Positions 34,269-63,763 of a DNA stretch of 64,000 nt are shown here, one piece after another. The translations under genes and the position numbers were made by a program. Source of the stretch: Daphnia pulex (Eukaryota > Arthropoda > Branchiopoda > Diplostraca > Daphniidae); contig NC_060026.1 of assembly GCF_021134715.1 (NCBI RefSeq), positions 9,415,001-9,479,000 on the forward strand, in the 5' to 3' direction. The notes beneath the pieces are model-generated. The model ran no database searches. It saw only the letters and a list, made by a program, of their open reading frames with translations, and was not told the DNA's origin. Position 1 is the stretch's first letter; every line of letters begins with the position of its first letter.

Positions 34269-35732
34269 CAGGGCCGCAGAGAGCTATTTTGGCGCCCGGG
34301 GCAGGCGTCGTCCGGCGCCCTGCCACTTTCGAGTAATACAGTTCTAAAAAAAATTGGACGAAATTTGACGATGAACCAAATAGGCTTTCATTTATTTAAG
34401 TTTGCAGTTTTCTGGGTTATTACATTTCAAGATAGCACAGTAGTCTAGTTTAACTAGTCACTTCATCCGTGCAGTATTTAGTATTAGTAAAGCACGTAAA
34501 ATCCAATATTCTATGCGCATAGATCGTTATTCAGTAGATAGATCCAACAGGCATTCAAGACATCACAAATCACAATCACATATTTATGCAAGGCATATTT
34601 TGCGAGCTTTCCTCGACGCGAAATTTGAAATTACTTCTTCATACGACACGGATCTGGCCAACTCGTTTTCAATAGATAACATCATAAGGCTCGAAAGCCT
34701 TTCCTGTCCCATGGTCGCTCTAAAATAGTTCTTGATGATTTTCATTTTGCTGAATGACCTTTCTCCCTCGGCGACAGAGACTGACATCGTATTGAAAATC
34801 CGCAGAAGGATGCAGATCGATGGAAACATGGGTTCTAGCCCCTTAGAAAAGATCTGATTGAGGAGTTTCAATGAGTTGCCAGGATTAAACAGGGCCCCTT
34901 TCACGCGATCAAAGTGACGAATTTCTGCCACAAGATCTTCTTCATTCACGTCGGTAGAGTAGAACTTGGCAAGCTCACGGGCTTTTTGTTCTTGAGCAAC
35001 AATATCATCAGTCAATGACCATATGAAATCAAATCTAGCATAAACCTCTTTAACGACTTCGAATCTTGATCGGATTTGTTGTATAAGATGATCCAATCCA
35101 ACGTTGAAAACACTCACCTCGAACTTCTTCTCTGCGCCGTCGTGGAAGTAGGCTGTATTCGGAGGTTCATCATGGTGCCTTTTTGTTTTCCTTGTTCGTT
35201 TGACTTCAAAGTCCTTTTCAAAACCGAGAGATTCGGCCACCAATTTTGCTTCTGACAAAAGTTCGTTCCATGACGAACGAATGCGGCCCAAATCATCTAA
35301 TAGCTGATTGATGAGGATAATTTCGTCGTCAATTGCAATTGAATTAGATTGCAAGAGACGACTGACGTCGTCCGCCGCTTGAAGCGTCTTGAGCCATACA
35401 GTAAGAAGGACCACCGTATCAAAAGATTTTAACCATTTCTTTAAGGATTTGGCTTGATTGACCATTTCGCCAGTGTGAAGTACTAATTGGAAAATCGTTT
35501 TCATATCGCTTACTCGCTTCTCTCACTTTCTCACTTTCGTCCTAAAATTCAATTTAAGTATGAAATAACATAGACGATTTCCTATTTCAAGACACATCAT
35601 TTACAATCATTTATTTATTTCTTTTATTTTTTAATTTCTGTTTTTTTTTCGCGCCCTCCGCTTTTTGGCGCCCCCCGCTTCTTGGCGCCCAGGGCAGCTT
35701 GCCCCTCTAGCCCCCCCCTCTCGGCGGCCCTG
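34269..35732. mobile_element. hAT-superfamily transposon, deleted copy
   Basis: The element starts CAGGGCCGCAGAGAG and ends with the inverted form CTCTCGGCGGCCCTG. It is flanked by an exact 8-bp direct repeat GTCTCAAT (34261-34268 and 35733-35740), the hallmark of hAT insertion. GGCGCC-rich subterminal sequence occurs at both ends. Inside is the C-terminal half of a transposase on the minus strand. At 1.46 kb it is too short to be autonomous. Confidence 0.9.
34584..35504 (-). CDS. hAT transposase, C-terminal part (ZMYM/DUF4371-type)
   Basis: An uninterrupted 306-residue frame. The C-terminal hAT dimerisation region is clear: IFNTMSVSVAEGERSFSKMK, followed by IIKNYFRATMGQERLSSLMM and SIENELA. 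The upstream part (LKTLQAADDVSRLLQSNSI, IFSKGLEPMFPS) matches the helical insertion region of transposases related to zinc finger MYM-type 1. The BED/TTF zinc finger and the first catalytic aspartates are absent, so the protein is an N-terminally truncated, inactive transposase. The open frame suggests recent loss of activity. Confidence 0.8.
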   Translation of the reverse strand: MKTIFQLVLHTGEMVNQAKSLKKWLKSFDTVVLLTVWLKTLQAADDVSRLLQSNSIAIDDEIILINQLLDDLGRIRSSWNELLSEAKLVAESLGFEKDFEVKRTRKTKRHHDEPPNTAYFHDGAEKKFEVSVFNVGLDHLIQQIRSRFEVVKEVYARFDFIWSLTDDIVAQEQKARELAKFYSTDVNEEDLVAEIRHFDRVKGALFNPGNSLKLLNQIFSKGLEPMFPSICILLRIFNTMSVSVAEGERSFSKMKIIKNYFRATMGQERLSSLMMLSIENELARSVSYEEVISNFASRKARKICLA

Positions 35733-41766: not shown

Positions 41767-42638
41767 AGGGAGACTGAAGTAAGCCGGGACGGTTTTCGTT
41801 TTCCCCCTATATCTTCCAAACTAATAATTAAATTTATTTATAATTTAGTTTTTATGTTTTCCATACCGTAATGTACCCCCCATATGTTTTGTATAATTTA
41901 ACAATCAACCATTTTCCCATATAAGACATTTAAAGTTTTCTCAGATTTGTGGGAGGTACCTATTTTGAGGGGTATGTGAGGACACTGGGGTGGGTGGTGA
42001 GAGACGTCCTCCAATTTCGCCTTAAAATTCATTAAAAAATTTGTAAAAATTTAAATAGCGTCCCACTGCATAGACTCTATAAGTTAATAAATTCTTCAAT
42101 TTGATTATTGTGTTATTAAAATTGTTTTCTTAGATGATAAAAATCGTAATGGAGCAGTAGGACATACTGCGTTGTGAGGTCTGAAAATCGATTTTGTGTA
42201 CAGCCTCTTTAAAACGATGTACGCTGATTAGCCCTAACTGTCCCAAATAAGTCAAAACAGCTGTCCCGATTTCCTGATAAAGACAATTTTTTTTAAACGT
42301 TAATATTATCTAAAGTAATTGATGGAAAATTATAATTTTTGTTTTAAACGATAAAAAAATGATTGAGCTTCATTTCTAAATTTAATTAACATGCCATTTG
42401 CTCTTTGTTTTTTCTAAAAACCTTATCTGGTGGAGAGAAAATTAACTAAAAAAATCCGTTTTTTTGTTTTGTTTAAAACTGATACAGTTTTTGACAAAAC
42501 TCAACCAAATTTCAAGCCAAATTAGATGGCATGTATCTAAATGACATACTAAAAAAGTTTTTAATTGGATTAAAATTTACTATTTTTCCCCCTACTGTCC
42601 CTCTTGACCCGGTGTCCCGGGATACTCCAGTCTCCCCT
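41767..42638. mobile_element. ~870-bp inverted-repeat element, non-coding
   Basis: The left end AGGGAGACTGAAGTAAGCCG continues GGAC; the right end read in reverse is AGGGGAGACTGGAGTATCCC followed by GGGAC. The arms match with few gaps. The interior has no transposase. No certain target duplication was seen, although TA-rich bases flank both ends. Confidence 0.65.
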
Positions 42639-43835
42639 AAACAAGTATGTTCCAAGTATTGGATCATAAAGCCTAAGCGCATACCATTGAGGCACTGATT
42701 TTAGTTTCTTTACTTTCGGAATACATCGTAGAACAGTGGGAATTACTAATGCCTTGCAAGGGATATTCCATAAGCGTATTAGATCTTTTCCTGGTCGACG
42801 CCATGGTTTTTAGTGTACGTCCAAATCCTATTACTATGGCTCACCGGAATAACTAAGTTCTTGGACAATCAGCTTTGTGACACAGTAAGCACAAATAATT
42901 TCAATGTCAGAGAATGGAGAGTCTAACGTGATATCATTAACCTGCGTAGTTATTTTAAAAATAGCAATTTATGAAAATTCAACAATGATTTTAAAAAGTC
43001 AAATGTCTCACTAATTGACACAATAAGCAGCAATCAGAATGTGATTTGCCCTTTTTCAAGAGATCCGCCACAGAAAGATTCCCTATCACGTAACAAAGTG
43101 GCTGTAATCAATAAATCCAGGATTAACTGAGGTCAGCCCCAATTTCCTTAAAATAGGCTATTATTAACAATCGCATCAGTTATTAATTTGGTGTGATAAG
43201 AAATTTAATTAACAAAATAGCAATTTCAAATTCCAGTCTTAATTAGGCATAGCATTCACGATGCCTTTTGAAAGCGTTGCAATAAGGAATCCTTTGTTAA
43301 ACTCCTGCACTATTATGAATGATTGGCGTGTTCCAAAGAAACACGTAAAGCAGTGTTAAAAAATATAGAAAACATTCTATTTACATATGCTGGAATAGTA
43401 GTTTGAAATTTTTTGAGTAAACACCGGTCATTTGTCACTGGTATGTCTGGTGAGACTTACTTTTTATAGTTTTCTATTAACAACTTCTACAGCATGACCA
43501 AGAAAAAGCTGTCCCTTCTGATACTGTGCTGTCAAGTCTGAAAGTACTGAAACCAAATTTGACTAACTGAAAAATTATTTTACTGAATTTTTATGATTTG
43601 GATTATTTTTTGAAAAGTATCAAATAAAGTTGTTATACAAGCAGAGAAGATCCCTGAAAGAATTTATAGAAAAGCCAATTTTGTCTTAAGTAGCCAATAA
43701 TGAAACACTAGAGAACTCCAAAATATTTTTTTTTAACATTTCAAAATTTCATAATCATTTAAAGAAGACAATCAAAGCAATACATCGGGGAACTGCTTGA
43801 GAATAATCATACATCAGAAGAAATACTGCCAAAAC
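42639..43835. other. AT-rich stretch, nothing identified
   Basis: No open frame, repeat or RNA gene could be supported here. Confidence 0.35.
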
Positions 43836-44270
43836 TGTTCGAGTAGAGACAAGATGACCAAATTAGAAACGAAAATATTATGATTGAGAAAACTGATTAA
43901 GAAAAGATTGAAACTACAATTGTGAATGCCGTAAGAGAAGAATGCATTTATTGAAAAAAAAAGAAACAGTTAAAACCGCCAAAATTGTTCGAGTAGAGAC
44001 AAGACGAACCAAATTAGAAAAGAAAATATTATGATTGAGAAAACTAATTAAGAAAATATTAAAACTACAATTGTGAATGCCGTAAGAGAAGAACGCATTT
44101 ATGAAAAAAAAACAGTTAAAACAACCAAAATTGTTCGAGTAGAGACAAGACGAACCAAATTAGAAAAGAAAATATTACGATTGAGAAAACTGATTAAGAA
44201 AAGATTGAAACTAAAATTTTGAATGTCATAAGAGAAGAATGCATTTATTGAGAAAAAAGAAACAGTTTAA
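43836..44270. repeat. Three-copy tandem repeat, period ~147 bp
   Basis: GTTCGAGTAGAGACAAGA recurs at about 43837, 43987 and 44133. Each is followed by ACCAAATTAGAAA, TATTATGATTGAGAAAACT, ACTACAATTGTGAATG and TAAGAGAAGAA, so whole units of 146-150 bp are repeated with a few differences. The second and third copies are most alike. No coding sense was seen. Confidence 0.8.
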
Positions 44271-44719
44271 GTTTTTTATGCCAAATTAGCAGCGTTAAAG
44301 CGAACGTTAACCTTCGTAACAACAAGTACCTTTATTTGTAAATATATTACACAAGGAACACAGTTCATAAGTAACTTTAACTTAACTTTTTAAATAAGTA
44401 CTTCCGTCATTAACAAATTTTTTGTCACAGATCTCAGAAATAAAAAAAAAAACACCTCCGGCTGCGTACACGAATGGCGGGAAAATTTGTAATACCGCAG
44501 CTATTATTCTTAACCAAAATATCATGCAACGGCATCTCAAAATTCTTTTCGGGGTATTCTTTGACTATTTTTTTTAAATAGCAGGCGTGATTGGGGTGGG
44601 GGTAGAAAACCAGGGAAAAACAAGAAGAAATTTGGTTGTTAGAAAATACAAGGAATATTTATTTCTGTATTACACAAATCTGTCTAAACATAAAATTTCT
44701 GTTTTCTTTCTCTATTAAT

Positions 44720-45480: not shown

Positions 45481-46096
45481 TAAAGTTGTTATCCACGATT
45501 GGAAAAATTTAAATAAATATTGAACATCGATTATAAACTTTATAAATCAAAATAAAACCTGAACAATTTAATAAGAAATCTTCGTTTTCAATTGTGAGTC
45601 TATGTCGACCATTATAATTAACTTTATTTTTAGATTGCAATTTTTTTCTTGTTCATACCAATTAATCCACAGATTAACGGACCTCATGGATATGTTTAAT
45701 GTTTTGCAATTCTATGGGTAGTTCCAAATTGGAAAGAAATGAGGAACTTCAAATTCATTTCTATGCCTTGCTTTTTCAATTTAAATTGCTTCAAACAACC
45801 AGCAAGTTTTACGGTGGAATTCGGAAGGATAGATTTTGAAACGTCTCCAGGAAGAAGAAGGTAGTGATGTAGTTCTTTCTTAAGTCCACTCTTGAGTCCG
45901 TGAAAAAGAGGGTAGAAGAACATTAAGATGACAGTGAACTCGATTTTGACGAACAATCTCCGTCAGAGGACGACGACGAAGTAAGTGTTTCAATGGAAGG
46001 TAGTAGACTTATAAGATTGAAACGGTGTTGAGTGTCGCCCCCTTTAACAAATGCCACCCCCCCCCTCCGTGGGGTCAACTATAGCCCCGTCGACTG

Positions 46097-47914
46097 CTAC
46101 AGAAAAGCCTTAAATTCACTGAAACGGCAACGTTGCATCCCTATGGGGTATTTGAAATCTGATTTCACTTTTTCATGTGAGCTTTGCATCCTGACTTCTA
46201 TCGTCTTAAAGATTTTTCCATCAATTACTTTATAACAAAAACACGTAGATCCTTCTGTCATGTACAAATTTTTTTCATGCAATATATCCGAAAGAGATTC
46301 TTCTTCAAATTCCAGAGTAAAAAACTTCACAAATTCACGTTTGAAGTTATCGTTCCGCAATGCCTTTAGAAAATTTGGCAGGCTTTTTTTTGCTTTTTTC
46401 CAATGACATCGTATTCCGCATTTATGTCACCATTATCGCTTCGTCGATCCCTTTTGAAATCTTTGATCGAAGGATAGAGAATTTGATCAAATATCAGGTG
46501 AGTTTCCTTTCCTTGGTACTTGCAGAGTTTTATAAGTAACACCCGTGCAATGGCTTCATACGTCTGAGGAAGGTTATTGGAGAGTAAGTGGAGGAAGAAA
46601 AATCCGTCAATGATGTATACTTCGATTGTTCTCGGAGAATTACTTACAATTCGTTTTTCCAGATTTTTATATTATACGACTTTGTTGGTTAAATTTTTTG
46701 CACCGTCGAGGTGACAAAATACCAAGGGCACCGGAGTTAATGGGTAGGAAAGGACAATTCCAATGTCCCTCTTGTCTTTTAGGGGTATTAGCCTTAGTCG
46801 TTCTCTTCGTTATTTTTCCTTCTTCGTAAAAGTGTTAATCTTTTGTCTTTTGATTGGGTGTTCAAATGCCGAGGTCTGCAATCAACATCGAATGGATTGT
46901 TGCATGAAGCAAAGAATTATAAAATATCAGAAAGGTGCTTCTTGTCTTTACGAATTCTGGGTGGGTAGGCTTCCTTTAAAATGTCTTCTTTTCTTTTTAA
47001 GTCTAATTCTTTAATTAAATGCGAAACTAATGTAGTGCGAATGAAGTGAGACATTGCCCACCTCTGTCTTGCTGAAATGGATTCCGTAAAATGAATAACA
47101 CCTGTAGCATAAATTCACCGGTTCAATTATAAAATGATTGTCCCATAAATATATCTATCACGCATATAGGCCTACCTTTAGCAGAGCTCGCTGCATCGGC
47201 ATTGGCAGTTTGTTCTACAGTAAAATCAATGGGAATTTGGGAGAACATATATACCTGTATTGTTTCGTTCGAACAAGTTACTAAATTTTCCGTTTTATTG
47301 TTCAACTGTTTTCTTATTTTGTTGCTGAACACACACTTTTTGGCAAATATGTCAGTTCTAGTAACGTTGGGTTTTTTTTGTTGTTGATCTGAGAGTTCTC
47401 TGGCTAGGAATGCTGTTAACTGTTTGTGACGTTGCTGCTGGTTGATCTAAAACTAAAATGCAAAGTTAAATTATGTCTAATTACTATTGGAAATGCACTA
47501 CAAGGTAAAGTTATTCTGCAACAAGGATAAATATTAGAAACACTGTAATGTTTATATTCCTGGTTGATTTTCTTGTTCAGTGTAAACGAGAACATTTTTC
47601 TTTTCAATAGCCAATTGCACTTCCTGGCTAGAAACAGATGTAAATTTACTGTAACAGGATGGGTGATATCCTGGAGAATTTTCAAGACTTTTTTGCACTT
47701 GAATTGTACTGTATTTTGTCTTAGCACGAAATTTATACACAAGCTGGGCATCTTGACACTTTTTCAGATGTTTGTCAGTGAAAATCTTAACAGATTCTGA
47801 ACATTTCGCAACGTGAATCACGCACTGACTTGATTCTTTTGAAACACAATCAATTCCTGAAACCGTTTCAATTTTAAAAAAGTATTCTAACATTATAACG
47901 ACAAAAGTTTTCAT
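46097..47914 (-). pseudogene. Decayed multi-copy element-like gene (unit 1)
   Basis: Minus-strand pieces in collinear order: a Cys/His-type start (CSESVKIFTDKHLKKC ... GYHPSCYSKFTSV), then ARQRWAMSHFIRTTLVSHLI with RIRKDKKHLSDIL and NPFDVDCRP, then LPQTYEAIARVLLIKLCKYQ with FDQILYPSIKDFKRDRR, then FLKALRNDNFKREFVKFFTL. I recognise this order from large families of uncharacterised, highly repeated invertebrate genes, probably transposon-derived; no family name is claimed. Several stops and frameshifts separate the pieces. Confidence 0.5.
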
Positions 47915-49129
47915 GTTAAAATCTTCCAGAGCTGGCTAAACACAGAGTAAAAAACGTTGCCAATTGGCGAATAACGTTATCATTTATAATTTTATAGCTG
48001 AATTATTTTAGTATCGGATTTATATTTAAAATTAAGACTTTAAATTCAAACAGGGTACTGCTATTTTACATTTTTACATAGAAAAGGAAAATCAGATTTC
48101 AAACCCCCGCGTTGGGATGCAACGTTGCCGTTTTAGTGAATGGTAGGCTTTTCTGTCAAATCGAGTAAGAAAATGAGGTCTGGATGATATAAATCAACTT
48201 TTAAAGAAGTCTGGTCTTCAACAGTTAAATTGTGCATGATTTGATATATTTGTTGGTATTTTTTTTATACCTGTCAATCAAAGTGCGTTTTTTCTTCATT
48301 TCACGCCGAATTCGGCAACATGTCACGCTTATACGCGGCCGCTGTGACGGACCAGACGTGACACTCACGTTTTACCCCACCCACCTCTTTCACATTTTTC
48401 CTTCAGACCTTTTGCTAATTAAAATGCGTCAAATTATGGGCTGGCTCTTAGCCTATTAGGTGTATTAAAAAAATACAATAGAGTTGAAGAAAAAACTACA
48501 CCACGATCGACAAACAAAAAAATTACGACACAAACAAAAAGGAAAATTTACACGGTTAAGGTTGAGGATTTAGACGAGATGAGTCAGTCAAGTCGGCAGC
48601 TCAGTAAAGAAAACTCCCCTTGGAAATCCTTCTGTAACAATAATCTAAACGATGATACTTTCAGAAAGCTAAAAATGATGGCAAATTCCGCTCCGCCAAA
48701 TGCCACTCCGACCAAATTATAGTTATCGTATGGGGTAAATTTTGTTCGATCCAAAGGATATCCTCTTTGTTTTTAGCTCGCAGATATTCCCGGCTAACTC
48801 GTCGGATGAATAAATTCGTTTGCCGTTCTGTGACGCACCTCTCTCTTCTGTGGAGAATCTTGTCGCCTTCACCGAAGTAAAGCCTATTATATGATTTGTA
48901 TGATTTCAAAGTGCTTCGGCTCCGGTGGAATTTTGTCTGTCTGGCTAACCATTGTTTCAAATCAATCAAATTCCATCTGCTGCACCTTTTCTCTGCTTGA
49001 TAAAACCTCAGCTTTTTCAAAATTTTTGGAAAACTGTCTCTTCGTCATTTCAAAAAGAGCAACAAACTAAAATACCTTTATCCAAATAGTATCTCCAAGC
49101 TGTTTAAGAATGTCATTCAGGCAAAAAAA

Positions 49130-49350
49130 TGTGCTTGGCAACTGCACACACGACAAAAATGGTTCAGCCCTAGTCAACATGGTTTCAGGGATGGTCTGTC
49201 AAACGAATCAGCCTCTCTTTCCCTTCTTAGGCAAATTGAAGTAAAAAAATAAAGCCTTTTCAGGTATTAAGTCAGCTTTTGAAGTGGCTTCGCCACCTGC
49301 AATTCTAAACAGTTTGATTCGTGGTGTTGTTGCAATTTCTCACCTGTTTT
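49130..49350 (+). pseudogene. Reverse transcriptase scrap (unit 1)
   Basis: QKWFSPSQHGFRDGLSNESA and, after a shift, VKSAFEVASPPAILNSLIRG match the SQHGFR and D-x-K-x-A-F-D-x-V blocks of jockey/RTE-type non-LTR reverse transcriptases. Only about 70 residues remain. Confidence 0.6.
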
Positions 49351-50396
49351 ATTTTCATAGACAAGACAACACCACAGGATGGGGTAGAAGGTGGAAATGG
49401 GCTAAAATAATGAAGTTCATTTTTCATTTGAAATGCGTTGTTGATACATAATTATTTCCCTACTTATAGACCTACAAAGTAGCCGAATTGCGTTAAGGTT
49501 CTACAGCATTTACCCAAGTTTTTACATCCATTTGAATTTTCCTTTTACTATAAAAATCTGAAAAAAATTCAGGAAAAAGCCAACCCTCAAGAATAAATGA
49601 AGAACAAAATTGGAGTTACACGGAACAGACGAGCCAAGGGAAAAATGAAACACCATTTTCTCTGCAACGGCTGAATTATATATATTAAGATGCAAAGGTG
49701 AAAGGAAATTCCCTTCTCTTTCAGAAGTGCTGTCTTTTGATTTTTTCAATTAAGTGGAGATACTATAAAAAATAAAATGCATTTTTACTATCTTTTTTAC
49801 CTTGTTTTTGTCGGTGGGTGGTCGTTTGTGTGGCTCTATCTCAACCCTTGTGAACACGTGACTTTTTTTTACTTCTGTTAGGTCCCAGCCCTGGCCCTAG
49901 TAAAACAGTAAAAAAAGTTAGTCGCACTTTCTCCAACATGTAATAACATATTGCACTAAATGATTTGGTTTATAAAGTTAAATGTGTTGATAAACTACAA
50001 TTGTGTGAGTGTTAAAAAATTTGCTCAGGTTGTGTGTGATAAAAAGAGTAAACAAATTGTCAAACTTCTCTAGGGGGTTTCACACCTGGATTGTCAAACA
50101 TATTTTTCAGTTCTAAAAGTTAAGATTTATACACTAGTGAGTTGTGATCTCTTTTCTTTGTTGACTCAAATGAAATATTCACGAGAGTGACACAAAGTTG
50201 TGTATATTTACATTTAATAACATTGCTGATACTGAAATCAACACATGTTTAAACATTACAGGTTTTAATATGGTTCGTAACTACTAGAAGGAAAATAAGG
50301 TGCAAAGAGAAATATATATTAGTTTATATTAAGGTGTATAGAAGTATACAATAGCGCTCTGAGACAGTTGAAATTATGTCATGATCTTTAATGGCA

Positions 50397-50640
50397 GAAG
50401 AGTTCATATAGAAAAGTAGCAGAAAGTTATGGCATTCCTAAGACAACCCTTTTTAATCACTTTAAAAAAATTTAACATCTTGCCTCCATCCCTGATATCT
50501 ATTTCTCGAATCAAGTGCATCACAGGCAAATCCTGAAGTACGAAGAAGAGCAGGAGCTCGTTGCATATCTCAAGCTTGTTGAGCATCTTCAAAGTGATTC
50601 AACATGCATTTCGTCACCAAAAAGTCTTGGCCAGTCAAAA
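50397..50640 (+). pseudogene. Pogo/CENP-B-like helix-turn-helix scrap (unit 1)
   Basis: RKVAESYGIPKTTLFNHFKK is the first helix-turn-helix of pogo/jerky-type transposases, followed after a shift by YEEEQELVAYLKLVEHLQ, the start of the second. The frame then collapses. No DDE domain follows. Confidence 0.6.
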
Positions 50641-51076
50641 TGAAACAAAACATTTTTGTGTTTTTTTTTACACAGACATATTGAATAATGTTTGATATAG
50701 TCTCTTGTGTCGATGGCGAAGCACATGCTGTTCAAGAAGATTACTGTAATTAGCTGAATACAGTCTACCATCAACTCGAGAAATTGTTGAGTTCATTGTC
50801 GATTTCAGATTTGTGATAAAAATAGATTTTTATCGTGGTATTCAAACCTAACAAAAGAAGCAAGTGGTGTATATAATCAACATGAATAATAACATAACAG
50901 CTGAGCAAATATGTTGTACTGTACCTGAACTCTTGACTCCATTCGTCGGTTGTTCCAAAGCTCTTACTCCATTTCTACTTCATGGTCATAGATTAACGCC
51001 ATTTTTTCCTCGTGAAGTATGGAAAATAAGTTAACATTTCCTTTTTTTAGTGGATGAGATATTGTAGTTGACCGAA

Positions 51077-53144
51077 ATGGCAAATTCGACTGAACATTGC
51101 CTTGTCTGCTCTAATGGTTCTAGGGGTCTTTGTTACGGTGTCAGGACGTGTGCTGCTTGTGCTGAATTTTTCCGTACAAGTATTGTTGGTAAATTATTTT
51201 TAGATCACTTGTTTGAGAGAAAATTCTCCCAACCATGTATAAAAACCTATTATTTGTAATGTGTATATATGTTTTATTTTAGAATCCAAGAATTACGAGT
51301 GTCTGAAGTCGAACAACTGTAACACCTCGTATGAATACCGTTCCCAATTCCCAAGGAAATTCTGCAAAAGTTGTCGCTTCAAAAAATGTCTTGAAATTGG
51401 CATGGAATTCCAACAGATGGTAGAAAAGAAGTTCAAGTGTGATGAATGTTCGAAGTCATACAATCAAGAAAAACAGTTGCAAATACATATAAGGGACACT
51501 CATTTACACAAATTCCCGTGCACAGTTTCTGGATGTGCACGGGAATTTACTCGTAAATCCGACAGGGATAGACATTCAAAAATAACAGATCCAAAACGCC
51601 ACATTCCTGGGAAGAACTTAAAAAATTATGTGGAAGGAAATCAACAAGTCAGGTTTGAGTGTGTTCAATGTCGTTTGATAAACCAAGCGGAAAAATCTTT
51701 CTCTTCCCGGCGTGAACTTAAACGACATCAAATTAGTATTCATGGTGAAGTGAGATACTATATTGTCAAGTCCCTGGATGCAACCAGTTCTTTAGAGACT
51801 CTAGTACTCGTGGAGTTCATTCTAGAAATCTTTTACCTCATATACATGATCCCAAGTATTACGAGAAGAAATTGGTGGAAAGAAATCGATTAAATTCGAG
51901 AAAAAATTTGAAAATTCTTACAAGTTTCTCTGGGAAAGCAAACGGTAAACAATTTGACGAAGAACATTTAAAGAAGAATTCTTCGTCAATTCCTTTTGAA
52001 ACGATTGAAGACAGTAACAATAGAATTTTCAATAAGAAAACATTTCTGTTATCGAACAGTTATTTGAATCAATATTTGTTTGCTGCAAAGAAGATGCCAG
52101 ACCGAAAACGTAGACATTCGTCGTTGAACGTGGAACGAGAGATGTTAAAACAACACAAAAAAGGATCGAAATATCAAAAGTTTTGTGAAAAAAACGACAA
52201 AACTAAAATGGACCATGAATGCCAAAGTAAGTTCAATTTAATGGTATCAATTTTCATATTCGTTATTGACATTTATGCAAATATTTTCATTTTTAGGATT
52301 ACTTTCACTAGGAAATGCTGCAATGTGTTATTCTGGTGTTGAAGCCATGGAGGCTTCAACATCAATACAACAGGCTACACCATCAACAGATCCATCACTT
52401 CTAAAAAACATCGCTTTTAAGCCTATTATTAACTGCAACGTCAATGGAGTTCAATTGCCTGTAGTTTGGCTTTGGAAGGCAATCCATCAAGCACTCATCG
52501 ATCCAGCATTCCTGTTGAACGAAATTAAATTTCCTTTGCGCGATGTCATTCAACAGCTTAAATGGTAATTTATTTCATAAATTAAAATAAAAATGAAATT
52601 TTTAATTTAAATTATTAATAGGCAAGTCAGTCCGGCTCACTGTGTTTACGAAATATTCAAGTCGGAAGTGCTTGTTTTGAAAAAGAAATTGCCGACAGTG
52701 AACGGTTATTGCTGTGTAAAATATAAAGAATATGGTGCTTCAAGAATTTGCTATACCTGTGAAAATGGGTTTTTACCGAAAAGATTGCAGCCAACAAGTT
52801 CAGTTTTGCCATTGTTGATAAAGGAGGCACCCAGGAAAAATTCAACCCTTGTTTTCCTGGTTGTCCGGTTATCTGGTCCAAGAGAACCAGTGAACTATTA
52901 TAAAATTTTTAAGGATCTAAGAGCCTCAGTTGAACAAAGTGCAGAGTACGTTTACTACATTTATAACAGTGATGTTTTTTATTTTAACTGCATTAATTAA
53001 TCTTGCAAAATTTTTCAATTACAGAAATCCCGGACCATTTAATGGATTCAACTTTCCAGGTGCACCACAACCTATTGTATTCATGGAAAACTTCATGAAT
53101 TGTGCCTCTGCAACGACCGCCGTTGATAGAATGTTTGTAGGAAC
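51077..53144 (+). pseudogene. Nuclear-receptor C4 / C2H2 zinc-finger chimera, copy 1, 3' end cut by the duplication joint
   Basis: Exons 51077-51188, 51282-52226, 52297-52564, 52622-52945 and 53025-53144 (cut). Exon 1 encodes C4 finger 1, CLVCSNGSRGLCYGVRTCAA followed by CAEFFRTSI. Exon 2 begins with finger 2, YECLKSNNCNTSYEYRSQFP then RKFCKSCRFKKCLEIGM (spacing C-x5-C-x14-C-x2-C, five longer than usual). C2H2 fingers follow: CDECSKSYNQEKQLQIHIRDTH, CTVSGCAREFTRKSDRDRH and FECVQC...H. No ligand-binding domain is seen. A frame shift occurs near 51750. The last exon runs into foreign sequence at 53145 (..FVGT/WEFCNSMG), so this copy lacks everything downstream. Confidence 0.7.
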
Positions 53145-53515
53145 TTGGGAGTTTTGCAATTCTATGGGTAGTTCCAAATTGGAAAGAAATGAGGAACTTC
53201 CAATTCATTTCTATGCCTTGCTTTTTCAATTTAAATTGCTTCAAACAACCAGCAAGTTTTACGGTGGAATTCGGAAGGATAGATTTTGAAACGTCTGAGG
53301 AAGAAGAAGGTAGTGACGTAGTGAAAAAAGAGGGTAGAAGAACATTAAGATGACAGTGAACTCGATTTTGACGAACAATCTCCGTCAGAGGACGACGACG
53401 AAGTAAGTGTTTCAATGGAAGGTAGTAGACTTATAAGATTGAAGAGGTGTTGAGTGTCGCCCCCTTTAACAAATGCCACCCCCCTCCGTGGGGTCAACTA
53501 TAGCCCCGTCGACTG

Positions 53516-55333
53516 CTACAGAAAAGCCTTAAATTCACTGAAACGGCAACGTTGCATCCCTATGGGGTATTTGAAATCTGATTTCACTTTTTCATGTGAG
53601 CTTTGCATCCTGACTTCTATCGTCTTAAAGATTTTTCCATCAATTACTTTATAACAAAAACACGTAGATCCTTCTGTCATGTACAAATTTTTTTCATGCA
53701 ATATATCCGAAAGAGATTCTTCTTCAAATTCCAGAGTAAAAAACTTCACAAATTCACGTTTGAAGTTATCGTTCCGCAATGCCTTTAGAAAATTTGGCAG
53801 GCTTTTTTTTGCTTTTTTCCAATGACATCGTATTCCGCATTTATGTCACCATTATCGCTTCGTCGATCCCTTTTGAAATCTTTGATCGAAGGATAGAGAA
53901 TTTGATCAAATATCAGGTGAGTTTCCTTTCCTTGGTACTTGCAGAGTTTTATAAGTAACACCCGTGCAATGGCTTCATACGTCTGAGGAAGGTTATTGGA
54001 GAGTAAGTGGAGGAAGAAAAATCCGTCAATGATGTATACTTCGATTGTTCTCGGAGAATTACTTACAATTCGTTTTTCCAGATTTTTATATTATACGACT
54101 TTGTTGGTTAAATTTTTTGCACCGTCGAGGTGACAAAATACCAAGGGCACCGGAGTTAATGGGTAGGAAAGGACAATTCCAATGTCTCTCTTGTCTTTTA
54201 GGGGTATTAGCCTTAGTCGTTCTCTTCGTTATTTTTCCTTCTTCGTAAAAGTGTTAATCTTTTGTCTTTTGATTGGGTGTTCAAATGCCGAGGTCTGCAA
54301 TCAACATCGAATGGATTGTTGCATGAAGCAAAGAATTATAAAATATCAGAAAGGTGCTTCTTGTCTTTACGAATTCTGGGTGGGTAGGCTTCCTTTAAAA
54401 TGTCTTCTTTTCTTTTTAAGTCTAATTCTTTAATTAAATGCGAAACTAATGTAGTGCGAATGAAGTGAGACATTGCCCACCTCTGTCTTGCTGAAATGGA
54501 TTCCGTAAAATGAATAACACCTGTAGCATAAATTCACCGGTTCAATTATAAAATGATTGTCCCATAAATATATCTATCACGCATATAGGCCTACCTTTAG
54601 CAGAGCTCGCTGCATCGGCATTGGCAGTTTGTTCTACAGTAAAATCAATGGGAATTTGGGAGAACATATATACCTGTATTGTTTCGTTCGAACAAGTTAC
54701 TAAATTTTCCGTTTTATTGTTCAACTGTTTTCTTATTTTGTTGCTGAACACACACTTTTTGGCAAATATGTCAGTTCTAGTAACGTTGGGTTTTTTTTGT
54801 TGTTGATCTGAGAGTTCTCTGGCTAGGAATGCTGTTAACTGTTTGTGACGTTGCTGCTGGTTGATCTAAAACTAAAATGCAAAGTTAAATTATGTCTAAT
54901 TACTATTGGAAATGCACTACAAGGTAAAGTTATTCTGCAACAAGGATAAATATTAGAAACACTGTAATGTTTATATTCCTGGTTGATTTTCTTGTTCAGT
55001 GTAAACGAGAACATTTTTCTTTTCAATAGCCAATTGCACTTCCTGGCTAGAAACAGATGTAAATTTACTGTAACAGGATGGGTGATATCCTGGAGAATTT
55101 TCAAGACTTTTTTGCACTTGAATTGTACTGTATTTTGTCTTAGCACGAAATTTATACACAAGCTGGGCATCTTGACACTTTTTCAGATGTTTGGCAGTGA
55201 AAATCTTAACAGATTCTGAACATTTCGCAACGTGAATCACGCACTGACTTGATTCTTTTGAAACACAATCAATTCCTGAAACCGTTTCAATTTTAAAAAA
55301 GTATTCTAACATTATAACGACAAAAGTTTTCAT
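53516..55333 (-). pseudogene. Decayed multi-copy element-like gene (unit 2)
   Basis: Second copy of the 46097-47914 remnant with the same stops and shifts; the visible protein change is IFTDKH to IFTAKH. Because the lesions are shared, decay preceded duplication. Confidence 0.5.
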
Positions 55334-56548
55334 GTTAAAATCTTCCAGAGCTGGCTAAACACAGAGTAAAAAACGTTGCCAATTGGCGAATAACGTTATC
55401 ATTTATAATTTTATAGCTGAATTATTTTAGTATCGGATTTATATTTAAAATTAAGACTTTAAATTCAAACAGGGTACTGCTATTTTACATTTTTACATAG
55501 AAAAGGAAAATCAGATTTCAAACCCCCGCGTAGGGATGCAACGTTGCCGTTTTAGTGAATGGTAGGCTTTTCTGTCAAATCGAGTAAGAAAATGAGGTCT
55601 GGATGATATAAATCAACTTTTAAGGAAGTCTGGTCTTCAACAGTTAAATTGTGCATGATTTGATATATTTGTTGGTATTTTTTTTATACCTGTCAATCAA
55701 AGTGCGTTTTTTCTTCATTTCACGCCGAATTCGGCAACATGTCACGCTTATACGCGGCCGCTGTGACGGACCAGACGTGACACTCACGTTTTACCCCACC
55801 CACCTCTTTCACATTTTTCCTTCAGACCTTTTGCTAATTAAAATGCGTCAAATTATGGGCTGGCTCTTAGCCTATTAGGTGTATTAAAAAAATACAATAG
55901 AGTTGAAGAAAAAACTACACCACGATCGACAAACAAAAAAATTACGACACAAACAAAAAGGAAAATTTACACGGTTAAGGTTGAGGATTTAGACGAGATG
56001 AGTCAGTCAAGTCGGCAGCTCAGTAAAGAAAACTCCCCTTGGAAATCCTTCTGTAACAATAATCTAAACGATGATACTTTCAGAAAGCTAAAAATGATGG
56101 CAAATTCCGCTCCGCCAAATGCCACTCCGACCAAATTATAGTTATCGTATGGGGTAAATTTTGTTCGATCCAAAGGATATCCTCTTTGTTTTTAGCTCGC
56201 AGATATTCCCGGCTAACTCGTCGGATGAATAAATTCGTTTGCCGTTCTGTGACGCACCTCTCTCTTCTGTGGAGAATCTTGTCGCCTTCACCGAAGTAAA
56301 GCCTATTAAATGATTTGTATGATTTCAAAGTGCTTCGGCTCCGGTGGAATTTTGTCTGTCTGGCTAACCATTGTTTCAAATCAATCAAATTCCATCTGCT
56401 GCACCTTTTCTCTGCTTGATAAAACCTCAGCTTTTTCAAAATTTTTGGAAAACTGTCTCTTCGTCATTTCAAAAAGAGCAACAAACTAAAATACCTTTAT
56501 CCAAATAGTATCTCCAAGCTGTTTAAGAATGTCATTCAGGCAAAAAAA

Positions 56549-56769
56549 TGTGCTTGGCAACTGCACACACGACAAAAATGGTTCAGCCCTAGTCAACATG
56601 GTTTCAGGGATGGTCTGTCAAACGAATCAGCCTCTCTTTCCCTTCTTAGGCAAATTGAAGTAAAAAAATAAAGCCTTTTCAGGTATTAAGTCAGCTTTTG
56701 AAGTGGCTTCGCCACCTGCAATTCTAAACAGTTTGATTCGTGGTGTTGTTGCAATTTCTCACCTGTTTT
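56549..56769 (+). pseudogene. Reverse transcriptase scrap (unit 2)
   Basis: Same sequence as the fragment at 49130-49350, offset 7419. Confidence 0.6.
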
Positions 56770-57815
56770 ATTTTCATAGACAAGACAACACCACAGGATG
56801 GGGTAGAAGGTGGAAATGGGCTAAAATAATGAAGTTCATTTTTCATTTGAAATGCGTTGTTGATACATAATTATTTCCCTACTTATAGACCTACAAAGTA
56901 GCCGAATTGCGTTAAGGTTCTACAGCATTTACCCAAGTTTTTACATCCATTTGAATTTTCCTTTTACTATAAAAATCTGAAAAAAATTCAGGAAAAAGCC
57001 AACCCTCAAGAATAAATGAAGAACAAAATTGGAGTTACACGGAACAGACGAGCCAAGGGAAAAATGAAACACCATTTTCTCTGCAACGGCTGAATTATAT
57101 ATATTAAGATGCAAAGGTGAAAGGAAATTCCCTTCTCTTTCAGAAGTGCTGTCTTTTGATTTTTTCAATTAAGTGGAGATACTATAAAAAATAAAATGCA
57201 TTTTTACTATCTTTTTTACCTTGTTTTTGTCGGTGGGTGGTCGTTTGTGTGGCTCTATCTCAACCCTTGTGAACACGTGACTTTTTTTTACTTCTGTTAG
57301 GTCCCAGCCCTGGCCCTAGTAAAACAGTAAAAAAAGTTAGTCGCACTTTCTCCAACATGTAATAACATATTGCACTAAATGATTTGGTTTATAAAGTTAA
57401 ATGTGTTGATAAACTACAATTGTGTGAGTGTTAAAAAATTTGCTCAGGTTGTGTGTGATAAAAAGAGTAAACAAATTGTCAAACTTCTCTAGGGGGTTTC
57501 ACACCTGGATTGTCAAACATATTTTTCAGTTCTAAAAGTTAAGATTTATACACTAGTGAGTTGTGATCTCTTTTCTTTGTTGACTCAAATGAAATATTCA
57601 CGAGAGTGACACAAAGTTGTGTATATTTACATTTAATAACATTGCTGATACTGAAATCAACACATGTTTAAACATTACAGGTTTTAATATGGTTCGTAAC
57701 TACTAGAAGGAAAATAAGGTGCAAAGAGAAATATATATTAGTTTATATTAAGGTGTATAGAAGTATACAATAGCGCTCTGAGACAGTTGAAATTATGTCA
57801 TGATCTTTAATGGCA

Positions 57816-58059
57816 GAAGAGTTCATATAGAAAAGTAGCAGAAAGTTATGGCATTCCTAAGACAACCCTTTTTAATCACTTTAAAAAAATTTAACATCTT
57901 GCCTCCATCCCTGATATCTATTTCTCGAATCAAGTGCATCACAGGCAAAACCTGAAGTACGAAGAAGAGCAGGAGCTCGTTGAATATCTCAAGCTTGTTG
58001 AGCATCTTCAAAGTGATTCAACATGCATTTCGTCACCAAAACGTCTTGGCCAGTCAAAA
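57816..58059 (+). pseudogene. Pogo/CENP-B-like helix-turn-helix scrap (unit 2)
   Basis: Same as 50397-50640 with a few base changes (for example GCAAATCC to GCAAAACC near 57947 and AAAAGTC to AAAACGTC near 58041). Confidence 0.6.
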
Positions 58060-58432
58060 TGAAACAAAACATTTTTGTGTTTTTTTTTACACAGACATAT
58101 TGAATAATGTTCGATATAGTCTCTTGTGTCGATGGCGAAGCACATGCTGTTCAAGAACATTACTGTAATTAGCTGAATACAGTCTACCATCAACTCGAGA
58201 AATTGTTGAGTTCATTGTCGATTTCAGATTTGTGATAAAAATAGATTTTTATCGTGGTATTCAAACCTAACAAAAGAAGCAAGTGGTGTATATAATCTCT
58301 TACTGGTTTTTCCAAAGCTCTTACTCCATTTCTACTTCATGGTCATAGATTAACGCCATTTTTCCTCGTGATGTATGGAAAATAAGTTAACATTTCCTTT
58401 TTTTAGTGGATGAGATATTGTAGTTGACCGAA

Positions 58433-61400
58433 ATGGCAAATTCGACTGAACATTGCCTTGTCTGCTCTAATGGTTCTAGGGGTCTTTGTTACGGTGTCAG
58501 GACGTGTGCTGCTTGTGCTGAATTTTTCCGTACAAGTATTGTTGGTAAATTATTTTTAGATCACTTGTTTGAGAGAAAATTCTCCCAACCATGTATAAAA
58601 ACCTATTATTTGTAATGTGTATATATGTTTTATTTTAGAATCCAAGAATTACGAGTGTCTGAAGTCGAACAACTGTAACACCTCGTATGAATACCGTTCC
58701 CAATTCCCAAGGAAATTCTGCAAAAGTTGTCGCTTCAAAAAATGTCTTGAAATTGGCATGGAATTCCAACAGATGGTAGAAAAGAAGTTCAAGTGTGATG
58801 AATGTTCGAAGTCATACAATCAAGAAAAACAGTTGCAAATACATATAAGGGACACTCATTTACACAAATTCCCGTGCACAGTTTCTGGATGTGCACGGGA
58901 ATTTACTCGTAAATCCGACAGGGATAGACATTCAAAAATAACAGATCCAAAACGCCACATTCCTGGGAAGAACTTAAAAAATTATGTGGAAGGAAATCAA
59001 CAAGTCAGGTTTGAGTGTGTTCAATGTCGTTTGATAAACCAAGCGGAAAAATCTTTCTCTTCCCGGCGTGAACTTAAACGACATCAAATTAGTATTCATG
59101 GTGAAGTGAGATACTATATTGTCAAGTCCCTGGATGCAACCAGTTCTTTAGAGACTCTAGTACTCGTGGAGTTCATTCTAGAAATCTTTTACCTCATATA
59201 CATGATCCCAAGTATTACGAGAAGAAATTGGTGGAAAGAAATCGATTAAATTCGAGAAAAAATTTGAAAATTCTTACAAGTTTCTCTGGGAAAGCAAACG
59301 GTAAACAATTTGACGAAGAACATTTAAAGAAGAATTCTTCGTCAATTCCTTTTGAAACGATTGAAGACAGTAACAATAGAATTTTCAATAAGAAAACATT
59401 TCTGTTATCGAACAGTTATTTGAATCAATATTTTTTTGCTGCAAAGAAGATGCCAGACCGAAAACGTAGACATTCGTCGTTGAACGTGGAACGAGAGATG
59501 TTAAAACAACACAAAAAAGGATCGAAATATCAAAAGTTTTGGGAAAAAAACGACAAAACTAAAATGGACCATGAATGCCAAAGTAAGTTTAATTTAATGG
59601 TATCAATTTTCATATTCGTTATTGACATTTATGCAAATATTTTCATTTTTAGGATTACTTTCACTAGGAAATGCTGCAATGTGTTATTCTGGTGTTGAAG
59701 CCATGGAGGCTTCAACATCAATACAACAGGCTACACCATCAACAGATCCATCACTTCTAAAAAACATCGCTTTTAAGCCTATTATTAACTGCAACGTCAA
59801 TGGAGTTCAATTGCCTGTAGTTTGGCTTTGGAAGGCAATCCATCAAGCACTCATCGATCCAGCATTCCTGTTGAACGAAATTAAATTTCCTTTGCGCGAT
59901 GTCATTCAACAGCTTAAATGGTAATTTATTTCATAAATTAAAATAAAAATGAAATTTTTAATTTAAATTATTAATAGGCAAGTCAGTCCGGCTCACTGTG
60001 TTTACGAAATATTCAAGTCGGAAGTGCTTGTTTTGAAAAAGAAATTGCCGACAGTGAACGGTTATTGCTGTGTAAAATATAAAGAATATGGTGCTTCAAG
60101 AATTTGCTATACCTGTGAAAATGGGTTTTTACCGAAAAGATTGCAGCCAACAAGTTCAGTTTTGCCATTGTTGATAAAGGAGGCACCCAGGAAAAATTCA
60201 ACCCTTGTTTTCCTGGTTGTCCGGTTATCTGGTCCAAGAGAACCAGTGAACTATTATAAAATTTTTAAGGATCTAAGAGCATCAGTTGAACAAAGTGCAG
60301 AGTACGTTTACTACATTTATAACAGTGATGTTTTTTATTTTAACTGCATTAATTAATCTTGCAAAATTTTTCAATTACAGAAATCCCGGACCATTTAATG
60401 GATTCAACTTTCCAGGTGCACCACAACCTATTGTATTCATGGAAAACTTCATGAATTGTGCCTCTGCAACGACCGCCGTTGATAGAATGTTTGTAGGAAC
60501 CTCAAATCCCGATATTCTACCATTACATATGCTGGCGGAATATATCATTTTTCACTACTACCCGGGTAACACCATTGCCATTGGAATGACTCAACCCGGA
60601 AGTTTCACAGTATCACCCCAATATATGGTAAGACTTTTCAAAATTTTTTAATTATCATCACATTTCCAAATGTTTTGGACATGTGATGATATACGAATGA
60701 TGTTGTGCATTAAAACCGATGTTTCTAACATGATTTTATTTAACAAATTGCAGAAACAGTTCATCGTAGGACTTTTTTCCCGTGGAATACCGAAAGATTC
60801 ACTTTTTTTTACTGCCATTGCTTGAAATCAACTGAGGGGAAATCGATCAAACTCGAAACAATTGTCAAGGCAAATGATTTGTTGAAATTAATAAACAAGA
60901 ACTCCCCTACCTATGGAACTCGACCGGCGGCAGTAGCATATCTTCATTCCATGATTGTTGGTTAGTATTTGATTTTTTGAAATGAAATATGTGTATGATC
61001 AAACAAACAAGTAAGAGCTGCTGTTGAAACTCGACAAGGTCCTTGGGTATACGCCTTCGGGTTATTGTGGCTATTGGGATAACTATGTATTCGTTTTTTG
61101 TCATCCCCCCCCCAAGATGGCAGTACAATAGCTGGAAATAATGGCAAATGTTGAGGTGAAAGAGGTGGCAGTAAAATCGGGGCAATATATAAACCATAAT
61201 CGTTCATTTTGTAATGATGGGTGTGGTCGCTAGGGGAACCATATGTATAGGGTAGTGAGGGAATGGTATCGTTAAATTCGTTATGTGCAATCTTTATGCA
61301 TGGCTGTGTTCTTAATAGAGTTTTTTATATCGGTGCATCATGTCGCACATTGCAGGTCCGTCGCCCAAAAAATTTAGGTCGTCTTTGGCGACTTCATTGA

Positions 61401-63714
61401 ATGTTCCTGTGTCCAGCAATAACCAAATTTCCCATACAGCGATTAAAGATCTGTCTTTAGAGACACAATCGTAAGCACAACCGTGATGTATTTTCTATGT
61501 ATATTTTTAAATAATCATTTGCGATTTAACGTAACCGTATGTCTGCGCTACAAAGGTCTAAAAATGTTTAGTGGATGTCATGTGATTTCTTATCGGCTTC
61601 CCATTGGTTTAAACGTTGTGTGAACGGTTTCCCATTGGTTCGGTAGTTTAGTCATGTTTAGGGAACAGTTGGCGTTCACACTTTGCGCTTTTCGGCATTA
61701 TTTTCTTTATCAGCTGAATCTGCGTGAAAAACTACAGGGAAAGATGTAGTTTACATCGTGATTAGTTTAACATTTAAATTAGATATTTGTAATTTCAGAA
61801 ACGCCACAGTCCTGGTATTGTGAGCAGCGTTCGTCATTTGTTTTATGTTTTGATTGTCATTTCTAAGGGATTCATTTATGTAGTTTACATGAAATTACAG
61901 GGAATAATATAGTTGAGTTTCGTTAGGCACTTCTAACGATTTCTTTTTATCGAAATAATTGTTTGAGCCCCAAAACACGGCTATTTTTTAAATGAATAAT
62001 TAGGAGGTTGTCATTTTATTTCAAATTTAACGAATTATTTTGACGTGGATCGCAACACGTCGGGACCATCAAATCACAAATGTTGTTACTCGCCAGCAAA
62101 TACTTTGTTTCCATGATCATGGAAAATGGAAAAACAATGGAAAAAATCTCGTAGGCGGCATGCATCAAATGGCCATTTTTATATTTCTATTATTATTATT
62201 TATTTGTCAATAGGGTGTCCATCAAGTGTCTGGTGTTTGGCAAAAGTGCCGTAAACCAAACATCATCAGTGAAATACACCATTTTACTGAGTGATGGATC
62301 GGGAACAATAAAGGCTGAAGGCTGGGGTCAACCTGGTTTGGCCTTCTTCGAATCTGTTATTGTAAGTAATTAATTTTCATCAATCGTTTCCCGTTAATTT
62401 ATTGTTATTTTATAAAAAAACTAGGTCGGCTTATGTTATAGCTTATCTAGCTTTGCCATTAGGGATCTCAAGGAGAGATTTTTTAAATTTTCCTGGTTAA
62501 AGAATCCCCTTTATATATCCGTGGGATCCTCTTCCAAAGCCATTCCGGATGCGGATATTGATATAGAAGACTTCAACTAGGATTTCATTTCACTTAGGGC
62601 GTTAAGTAGAAAAGGACAAGGTAATTACCTTGTACCATTATGGTATGCAATTTTCAACATGAAAAAATAAAAAGAATTAAAAAAAAACCAACGCCATCTA
62701 GCGATCAACCTTTGATCTACATATGGTAAAAACGCCACTGCCATCTAGTGGTCAATTTTGGAACTACTTCCAATAACTTTTCTCCTTTTGATTTACAACT
62801 TTTAGTCTCGATTTAAGTCTTAGAAAAAATACTATACATATTCATATCTATCAGGGTCAATTATCAGTAGGCCTGCATGTTACTTATAATATCTTACTTA
62901 TAAACAGTGATTTATTGATCAATTTCCCTTGATGTATAGTATTTTCTAAGACTTGAACCGTGACCAAAAGTAGTAATAATTATGTAGAAAAGTTTTGGGG
63001 TTTAGTTTCAAATGTGACCGCTAGATGGCAGTGGCGTCTTTTAACCTGATGTAGATCAAAATTTGATCGCTAGATGTCGGGATTTTTTTTTTGCATGTTG
63101 GAAACGGCGCGCCATATTTAATGCTTGTTTGGTCCAATGATAGTTGATGAACATAATTTCTTTTATTAGGGGAAACGTTCGCCATTGTAGGGGCCGTCAT
63201 CGACGATTCGGGGGACATCGTTATCAATGTCAACAACAGAAACCTAACAAAGAGGGACATTACAATTACCGATCAGCTTAACGTAAAGGTATTGTTTAAT
63301 TTTTTTGGACGTAACACCTGCCATCTATCGGACAAATTTGGAACTACACCCTAAACTATTTTTTCTAAGACTTCAATGGAGACTAATAGTTGTAATTCAA
63401 AAGTAGAAAAGTTTTGGGCGTAGTTTGAAATTTGACCGCTAGATGGCAGTGGCGTTTTAAACCTGATGTAGATCAAAATTTGATCGCTAGATGGCGGAAT
63501 TTTTAATAGCAATCGTGATACCTAACCTAACCAAACTATTATTATCTTCCAGGTCATCGTTACCATGTGGGCCAGGGCCGCCCAATTTGTCCAAGCCCTA
63601 CACGATAGCAATCAAGATTCCCCCGTGGTTGCCTTTTGTGGGGTGCGCCGGAACATGTTTCCGCAGAAGCATTCGTTGGTTGTCATCGATTGCTTCGATG
63701 ACACCTTTATTGAT
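58433..63714 (+). CDS. Nuclear-receptor C4 / C2H2 / RPA-like OB-fold chimeric gene, copy 2 (3' end outside window, frame lesions)
   Basis: Exons with compatible phase: 58433-58544, 58639-59582, 59653-59920, 59978-60301, 60381-60627, 60754-60960, 61356-61470, 62214-62361, 62425-62620, 63170-63288 and 63553-63714. The first two encode the C4 pair and C2H2 fingers as in copy 1. Exons 3-6 encode about 300 residues of no known family (NGVQLPVVWLWKAIHQALID, GAPQPIVFMENFMNCASA). Exons 8-9 resemble DNA-binding domain A of RPA70 (VKYTILLSDGSGTIKAEGWG) and exons 9-11 domain B (DFISLRALSRKGQ/GETFAIVGAV, NRNLTKRDITITDQ). Lesions: a shift near 59107, a T8 run at 60803 that needs T9 to stay in frame, and TAG at 62578. 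That all exons form one gene is inference from phase and order; a separate RPA-like gene is the alternative. Confidence 0.6.
61471..62213 (+). other. Large intron, no content recognised
   Basis: The 743-bp gap between exons 7 and 8 of the chimeric gene. It is AT-rich, without open frame, repeat or RNA signal. Confidence 0.4.
62692..63079. mobile_element. Fold-back inverted-repeat element inside an intron
   Basis: The left arm begins CGCCATCTAGCGATCAA, then TTTGATCTACAT and CGCCACTGCCATCTAG. The right arm is its inverted complement (CTAGATGGCAGTGGCG, ATGTAGATCAAA, TTGATCGCTAGATG). Similarity continues inward through TTCTAAGACTT and TATAGTATTTTC, so each arm is about 170 bp. No coding content. 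Confidence 0.75.
63317..63497. mobile_element. Second, partial copy of the same fold-back element in the next intron
   Basis: The right arm GACCGCTAGATGGCAGTGGC, then GATGTAGATCAAAATTTGAT and CGCTAGATGGCGG, is nearly identical to the element at 62692. The left arm is reduced to CCTGCCATCTATCGG, TTTGGAACTAC and TTTTTCTAAGACTT. It lies in the neighbouring intron of the same gene. Confidence 0.7.
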
Positions 63715-63763
63715 GTAAGTATTTAAATGATTTATTAAAATCATTATTAGTTTTCCTGCTTTT

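Follow-up and report, generated by a model that had tools for sequence, protein, structure and literature searches.

A nuclear receptor-type C4 module joined to disco/basonuclin-like C2H2 fingers in a dispersed, probably decaying gene family of Daphnia pulex

Results

Organization of the duplicated locus

We analyzed a stretch of 64,000 nucleotides, hereafter the window, which corresponds to bases 9415001–9479000 of contig C10 in the 133.2 Mb, 13-contig genome assembly of Daphnia pulex. The window contains a tandem duplication on the plus strand (45701–60500) with two units of ~7.35–7.45 kb each (45701–53144 and 53151–60500). The units are 99.7% identical in two long aligned pieces and 97.7% identical in a third piece of 173 bases.

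The gene under study lies on the plus strand and is more complete in the second copy, where six exons were delineated using splice sites that were placed by consensus and are therefore predictions. Exon 1 (58433–58544) comprises the start codon and the first C4 finger (CLVC...CAACAEFF). The first part of exon 2 (58639–59100) encodes the second C4 finger (C-x5-C-x14-C-x2-C) and C2H2 fingers 1–3 in a single frame. The frame is then broken ahead of C2H2 finger 4 (59100–59105), as it is in the first copy, and the remainder of the exon (59105–59582) continues in another frame and encodes a C2H2-like finger 4 (C-x4-C...HDP) and a linker. The C-terminal domain is encoded by exon 3 (59653–59920), exon 4 (59978–60301), which contributes its Cys-rich part, exon 5 (60381–60627), and exon 6 (60754–60965); DNA homology to the relatives described below stops near 60981.

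The first copy, also on the plus strand, consists of an exon 1 identical to that of the second copy (51077–51188), an exon 2 that differs from its counterpart at 2 of 944 bases and contains the frame break at ~51744 (51283–52226), and exons 3, 4, and part of 5 (52297–53144), with exon 5 cut at 53144 by the edge of the duplication. Across exons 1–4 the copies differ at only three positions (59434, 59542, and 60281 in copy 2 numbering), the last of which falls on the third base of a codon in exon 4 and is silent by manual reading. Given these few differences and the common first break, the duplication is recent and the first break older.

The zinc-finger region is held together by a splice junction and by a shared frame. 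At the exon 1/exon 2 junction, a GTAAAT donor after 58544 and a TTTTAG acceptor before 58639 connect the C4 fingers in frame, in phase 1. Beyond this junction, C4 finger 2 and C2H2 fingers 1–3 form one open exon 2 frame uninterrupted by introns, so RNA evidence is unnecessary for that half of the claim. The initial annotation described a C4 pair split across exons 1 and 2, followed by C2H2 fingers in the same exon and present in both duplicated units; its coordinates and frame hold. What it overlooked are the frame breaks, the type of the C2H2 fingers, and the repeated nature of the C-terminal domain. The joining of a receptor C4 module to C2H2 fingers is thus confirmed at the level of sequence.

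Seven stop-to-stop frames of at least 190 amino acids are found in the window, four of which are the exon 2 frames of the two copies; no frame of this length occurred in any of 20 mononucleotide shuffles. The other three frames are located at 24853–25446 (plus strand, 198 amino acids), 34587–35522 (minus strand, 312 amino acids), and 10611–12014 (minus strand, 468 amino acids). Two further features of the window were recorded. A loosely joined piece just upstream of exon 1 (57760–58070) resembles the Psq-type helix-turn-helix of a pogo-like transposase remnant (E 0.0018, below the cut-off). On the minus strand, at approximately 42000–44500, a frame with WPTKGADMNPTENIWDMLNAK is found, which resembles a remnant of a Tc1/mariner-type transposase.

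A divergent receptor DNA-binding module

Residues 7–79 of the spliced product match positions 2–69 of the 70 in the zf-C4 model (PF00105) with a score of 60.1 bits (E 3e-16; cut-off 21.1 bits), and all eight C4 cysteines are present. In a comparison with solved structures, the best match of the product was Aart, a designed protein to which the C2H2 part aligns (7.9e-15), followed by the DNA-binding domains of the glucocorticoid receptor and NR5A2 at ~1e-12, the former through the C4 part.

The zf-C4 model has 52 exon matches in the genome, four in the window and the rest at 29 other loci, as grouped manually. In all 20 other DNA-binding domains that were aligned, which represent 20 of the 29 loci (4 of them partial), the spacing in finger 2 is C-x9-C, as opposed to C-x14-C in the window protein, which bears out the five extra residues noted previously. 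By BLASTP, the window domain is 39–41% identical to seven of these 20 receptors and less similar to the remainder. The intron between the two fingers falls at the eighth residue counting from the first F of the FF pair, in phase 1. Two other genes share this position and phase: the one at C4:4548k, which, judging from its motif, we take to be ERR-like, and the C7:4950-4959k paralogue.

Two peculiarities could be taken to mean that the C4 likeness is a chance pattern of cysteines unrelated to receptor descent: the P-box of the window protein, CAACAEFF, lacks the lysine that is usual in receptors, and finger 2 has its five additional residues. Set against the strength of the profile match, the identity to seven receptors of the same genome, and the intron shared in place and phase with the ERR-like gene, such a coincidence is extraordinarily improbable.

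Assignment to a receptor subgroup was attempted with a tree of 17 rows and failed: the window domain received no supported placement and its branch is very long, and no single receptor stands out as its best match, several being tied. We regard the domain as a divergent module of the receptor type whose subgroup is uncertain. The P-box had also been likened to that of nematode receptors. This argument is weak because the ERR-like receptor of the genome itself has CEACKAFF and because several receptors are tied as the best match; a special nematode affinity is not supported.

C2H2 fingers resembling a disco/basonuclin pair

The zf-C2H2 model matches the spliced product in two stretches (E 3.7e-7). 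Finger 1 has the form C-x2-C-x12-H-x4-H and finger 2 the form C-x4-C-x12-H-S, a succession that constitutes the split-pair pattern of disco and basonuclin proteins. The genome contains a gene with pairs of this kind at C7:2466k that, from its motif, is presumably of the disco/basonuclin type, and our comparison with this family is a pairwise one against that gene. In a search covering eight loci, the C2H2 pair is 37% identical to it over 63 amino acids (E 3e-11). With the window protein as the query, two C2H2 matches fall outside the family, and C7:2466k (1.7e-6) scores better than C6:5123k (3.9e-4); with the relative on contig C3 as the query, C7:2466k is the only one of 17 matches that does not belong to the family (E 1.3e-11). 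C6:5123k was considered as an extra family member and rejected, being by eye an ordinary C2H2 array. A C3 relative has two disco-type pairs in succession, and the second pair of the window gene is split over the two frames. On these grounds, C2H2 fingers 1 and 2 resemble a split pair of the disco/basonuclin type.

The C-terminal domain

Exons 3–6 (59653–60965) encode a much-repeated domain, with 80 exon matches in the genome at E up to 1 and, when a member from contig C5 served as the query, 92 exon matches at E up to 0.001. Two of the members, C5:4278k and C5:4326k, have a different N-terminus. No Pfam family matches the window reading at E up to 1 or the C7 reading at E up to 10, and the C5 reading yields only one Pfam match, at the level of chance (E 2.5). 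Searches of solved structures produced nothing significant (best E 0.098, nanos), and 45 pattern matches in viral contigs include no relative of the domain. An OB or zinc-ribbon fold, suspected by eye, found no supporting match, and the family loci are absent among the matches of the RPA models PF16900 and PF08646. Further downstream, open frames at 62155–63726 are weakly similar to RPA OB domains (REPA_OB_2, E 0.0042 and 0.016, neither reaching the cut-off); this region is not among the seven matches of a whole-genome search with REPA_OB_2.

The initial annotation stated that the gene has no ligand-binding domain, and none was found, either in the Pfam search of exons 3–6 or in a genome search with PF00104, in which none of the 35 exon matches is on contig C10. 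As a control, the latter search detected a ligand-binding domain within 10 kb of 22 of the 29 other zf-C4 loci and missed seven, including the other zf-C4 locus of C10, so that on its own it is no proof of absence. Receptors that lack a ligand-binding domain are already known.

A dispersed family of C4–C2H2 genes

A piece of the C4 module lies 5' of the C2H2 array of this family at eight loci, two each in the window and on contigs C7, C3, and C2. Both fingers are retained in the two window copies. Finger 1 and an interrupted finger 2 are found at C7:4950-4959k, the finger 2 half at C7:4912-4921k, C3:7110k, and C3:7037k, and finger 1 only at C2:10782k and C2:11239k. Recognition by the zf-C4 model varies: finger 1 and the start of finger 2 at C7:4950-4959k score 27.5 bits, above the 21.1-bit cut-off, and the finger 2 halves on C3 and C7, aligned to the right-hand end of the model, fall narrowly short of it (18.7 and 19.8 bits). 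Finger 1 of the C2 copies matches nothing in Pfam and is recognized by its similarity to C7 finger 1 (E 5e-6); in these copies it directly adjoins the end of C2H2 finger 2, with no C4 finger 2 seen in between. In the stretches that were read, all six paralogues outside the window contain stops, frame changes, insertions, or deletions. That joined C4 and C2H2 pieces recur outside the window, at six loci on three contigs other than C10, indicates an inherited family rather than an accident of annotation.

Other copies preserve only part of this arrangement. At C5:1562k, C2H2 fingers and exons 3–6 are present together with a C4 remnant that is visible by eye only, and this locus was left out of the count of eight. 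Three copies at C5:5.93-5.97 Mb retain exons 3–5, and no C4 module or paired C2H2 fingers were found in the stretches of them that were read. These three (L043, L044, and L045) lie ~14–15 kb apart within blocks of at least 7.8–9.3 kb that are 99.3–99.9% identical.

One alternative is that a mobile element acquired zinc fingers in its coding part and carries the family, a reading favored by the dispersed and partly decayed copies on several contigs and by remnants resembling transposases, one close to exon 1 and one at 42–44 kb of the window. The introns, however, are retained; homology of the window to the C7 and C3 relatives at the DNA level spans the gene and ends near exon 6; none of the 14 inverted pairs within 57600–60900 brackets the window gene; many of the copies are local duplicates (~14–15 kb apart on C5, ~36 kb apart on C7); and the viral-contig matches (45) include no relatives. 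We therefore consider a mobile element improbable and treat the copies as products of gene duplication.

Frame breaks and coding capacity of the window copies

In the paralogues, six codons separate the last histidine of C2H2 finger 3 from the next cysteine, that of finger 4, compared with 20 nucleotides in both window copies. Because of this frame break, the product of standard splicing stops at 240 residues, with the C4 module and C2H2 fingers 1–3 followed by a tail read in a shifted frame. Downstream of the break, the frame contains no stop for 159 codons and continues in frame into exons 3–6. A second break affects exon 6 of copy 2: because of a run of eight T residues (60803–60810), the conserved stretch at the end (YCHCLKS...YLHSMIVG) is no longer in frame.

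An error of assembly or base calling in an intact gene would account for the frames being open on either side of both breaks, and the second break, in an 8-T run, is of a common error type. The first break, on the other hand, is outside any simple run and identical in both copies, and the paralogues have different breaks of their own, which makes sequence error a very improbable explanation, even more so than the mobile element.

The first break could also be bypassed. A GTGAAG donor-like site at 59101, only a few bases from the break, would, if spliced to 59653, skip it in frame and give a continuous product, computed to be open for 494 residues, in which the C4 module and the first three C2H2 fingers are followed by the C-terminal domain as far as exon 6. 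Such splicing also fits the distribution of differences between the copies, as two of the three (59434 and 59542) fall in sequence that this splice would remove and the third (60281) is silent. By eye, however, the 59101 site is a weaker donor than the GTAAGT at 59583; a donor in random phase would fit one time in three; exon 6 ends early regardless; and copy 1 has the same break and lacks the 3' end. We regard a window gene that works in this way as unlikely. The C4 and C2H2 modules of the DNA-binding factor proposed in the initial annotation therefore stand, but, with the breaks, the truncation of copy 1, and the damage to six paralogues, a working factor in the window is doubtful.

Past constraint

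Traces of selection were sought with Nei–Gojobori dN/dS estimates on short pieces, which are rough where dS is near or above 1, as it often is. For the C-terminal half of C4 finger 2, the window sequence compared with its relatives gives 0.17, 0.09, and 0.25 (27, 27, and 26 codons). For exon 5, the values are 0.17 and 0.16 (the two C7 copies), 0.34 (C5:5.95M), 0.30 (C3), and 0.33 and 0.29 (the two copies at C5:4.3M). In comparison with C3, C2H2 fingers 1–2 yield 0.36 and finger 3 yields 0.38, the latter being saturated in comparison with C7. Constraint is weaker in exon 3 (0.36–0.88), exon 4 (0.45–0.54), and the finger 4 region (0.39–0.80). When the relatives are compared with each other, values are mostly 0.31–0.61 in exon 5, mostly 0.6–1.0 in exons 3–4, and 0.51–0.70 in finger 2, and the two C7 copies exceed 1 in exons 3 and 4; this looser constraint is as expected for decaying copies.

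The low values in finger 2 and exon 5 suggest that a protein of the window line once worked. Purifying selection for a time on this line is, in this sense, indicated indirectly by dN/dS.

Discussion

The most probable reading of these data, in our judgment, is a dispersed family in which a receptor C4 exon pair is joined to disco/basonuclin-type C2H2 fingers and to a much-repeated C-terminal domain, and which is now decaying at this locus. According to the scenario that we favor, a receptor DNA-binding exon pair that kept its original intron was joined to split C2H2 fingers of the disco/basonuclin type and to the repeated C-terminal domain. The family would then have spread across four contigs by duplication, and the window copy would have gained its frame break before the recent tandem duplication. 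We infer that the ancestral protein was a ligand-independent factor contacting DNA through two kinds of zinc modules; it might have bound DNA hormone-free, perhaps at a composite site. With the P-box lysine missing and finger 2 longer, binding to a canonical half-site is uncertain.

The loss of function that we infer for the window copies has to be weighed against the 159 codons that are open past the first break and the open exons 3–5, which are more than would be expected of an old pseudogene. Since the 59101 donor would give a continuous protein, a working gene keeps some probability. More broadly, the family could consist of working ligand-independent factors with a C4 module, disco-type C2H2 fingers, and a new C-terminal domain, expressed either by means of that donor or from an intact member elsewhere; we hold this to be somewhat unlikely.

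Among the matches listed in our literature search, which covered the openings of abstracts and few subscription papers, no fusion of a receptor C4 module with C2H2 fingers is reported. If the fusion worked, it would mean that the DNA-binding module of a receptor is able to pass, intron included, into a different class of zinc-finger proteins and escape control by hormones. Even if the family is decaying, these genes document the shuffling of a receptor module into the C2H2 class.

Three known systems provide the closest comparisons. With the nuclear receptor superfamily, the window gene shares the two C4 fingers with eight cysteines, the GM end of the module, and the inter-finger intron as in the ERR-like gene; it differs in having no detected ligand-binding domain, a C-x14-C finger 2, a P-box without lysine, and C2H2 fingers directly behind the C4 module. 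The NR0A group of Knirps-type receptors combines a receptor-type DNA-binding domain with the lack of a ligand-binding domain, and its Knirps members have a kni-box; in the window gene, no ligand-binding domain was found. Two NR0A receptors have been reported for Daphnia pulex (PMC2774871). In contrast to the window gene, C2H2 fingers are not described for this group in the main text of that report, where the term 'c2h2' does not occur (PMC2774871). As for the disco/basonuclin family, a survey of Daphnia C2H2 genes reports one Disco homologue and describes Disco proteins as carrying paired fingers (PMC2889900). The window gene has the split-pair spacing, and outside the family no C2H2 gene of the genome matches it better than C7:2466k; in contrast, identity is ~37–39%, and the window fingers are joined to a receptor module and are not part of a long low-complexity protein such as that encoded at C7:2466k.
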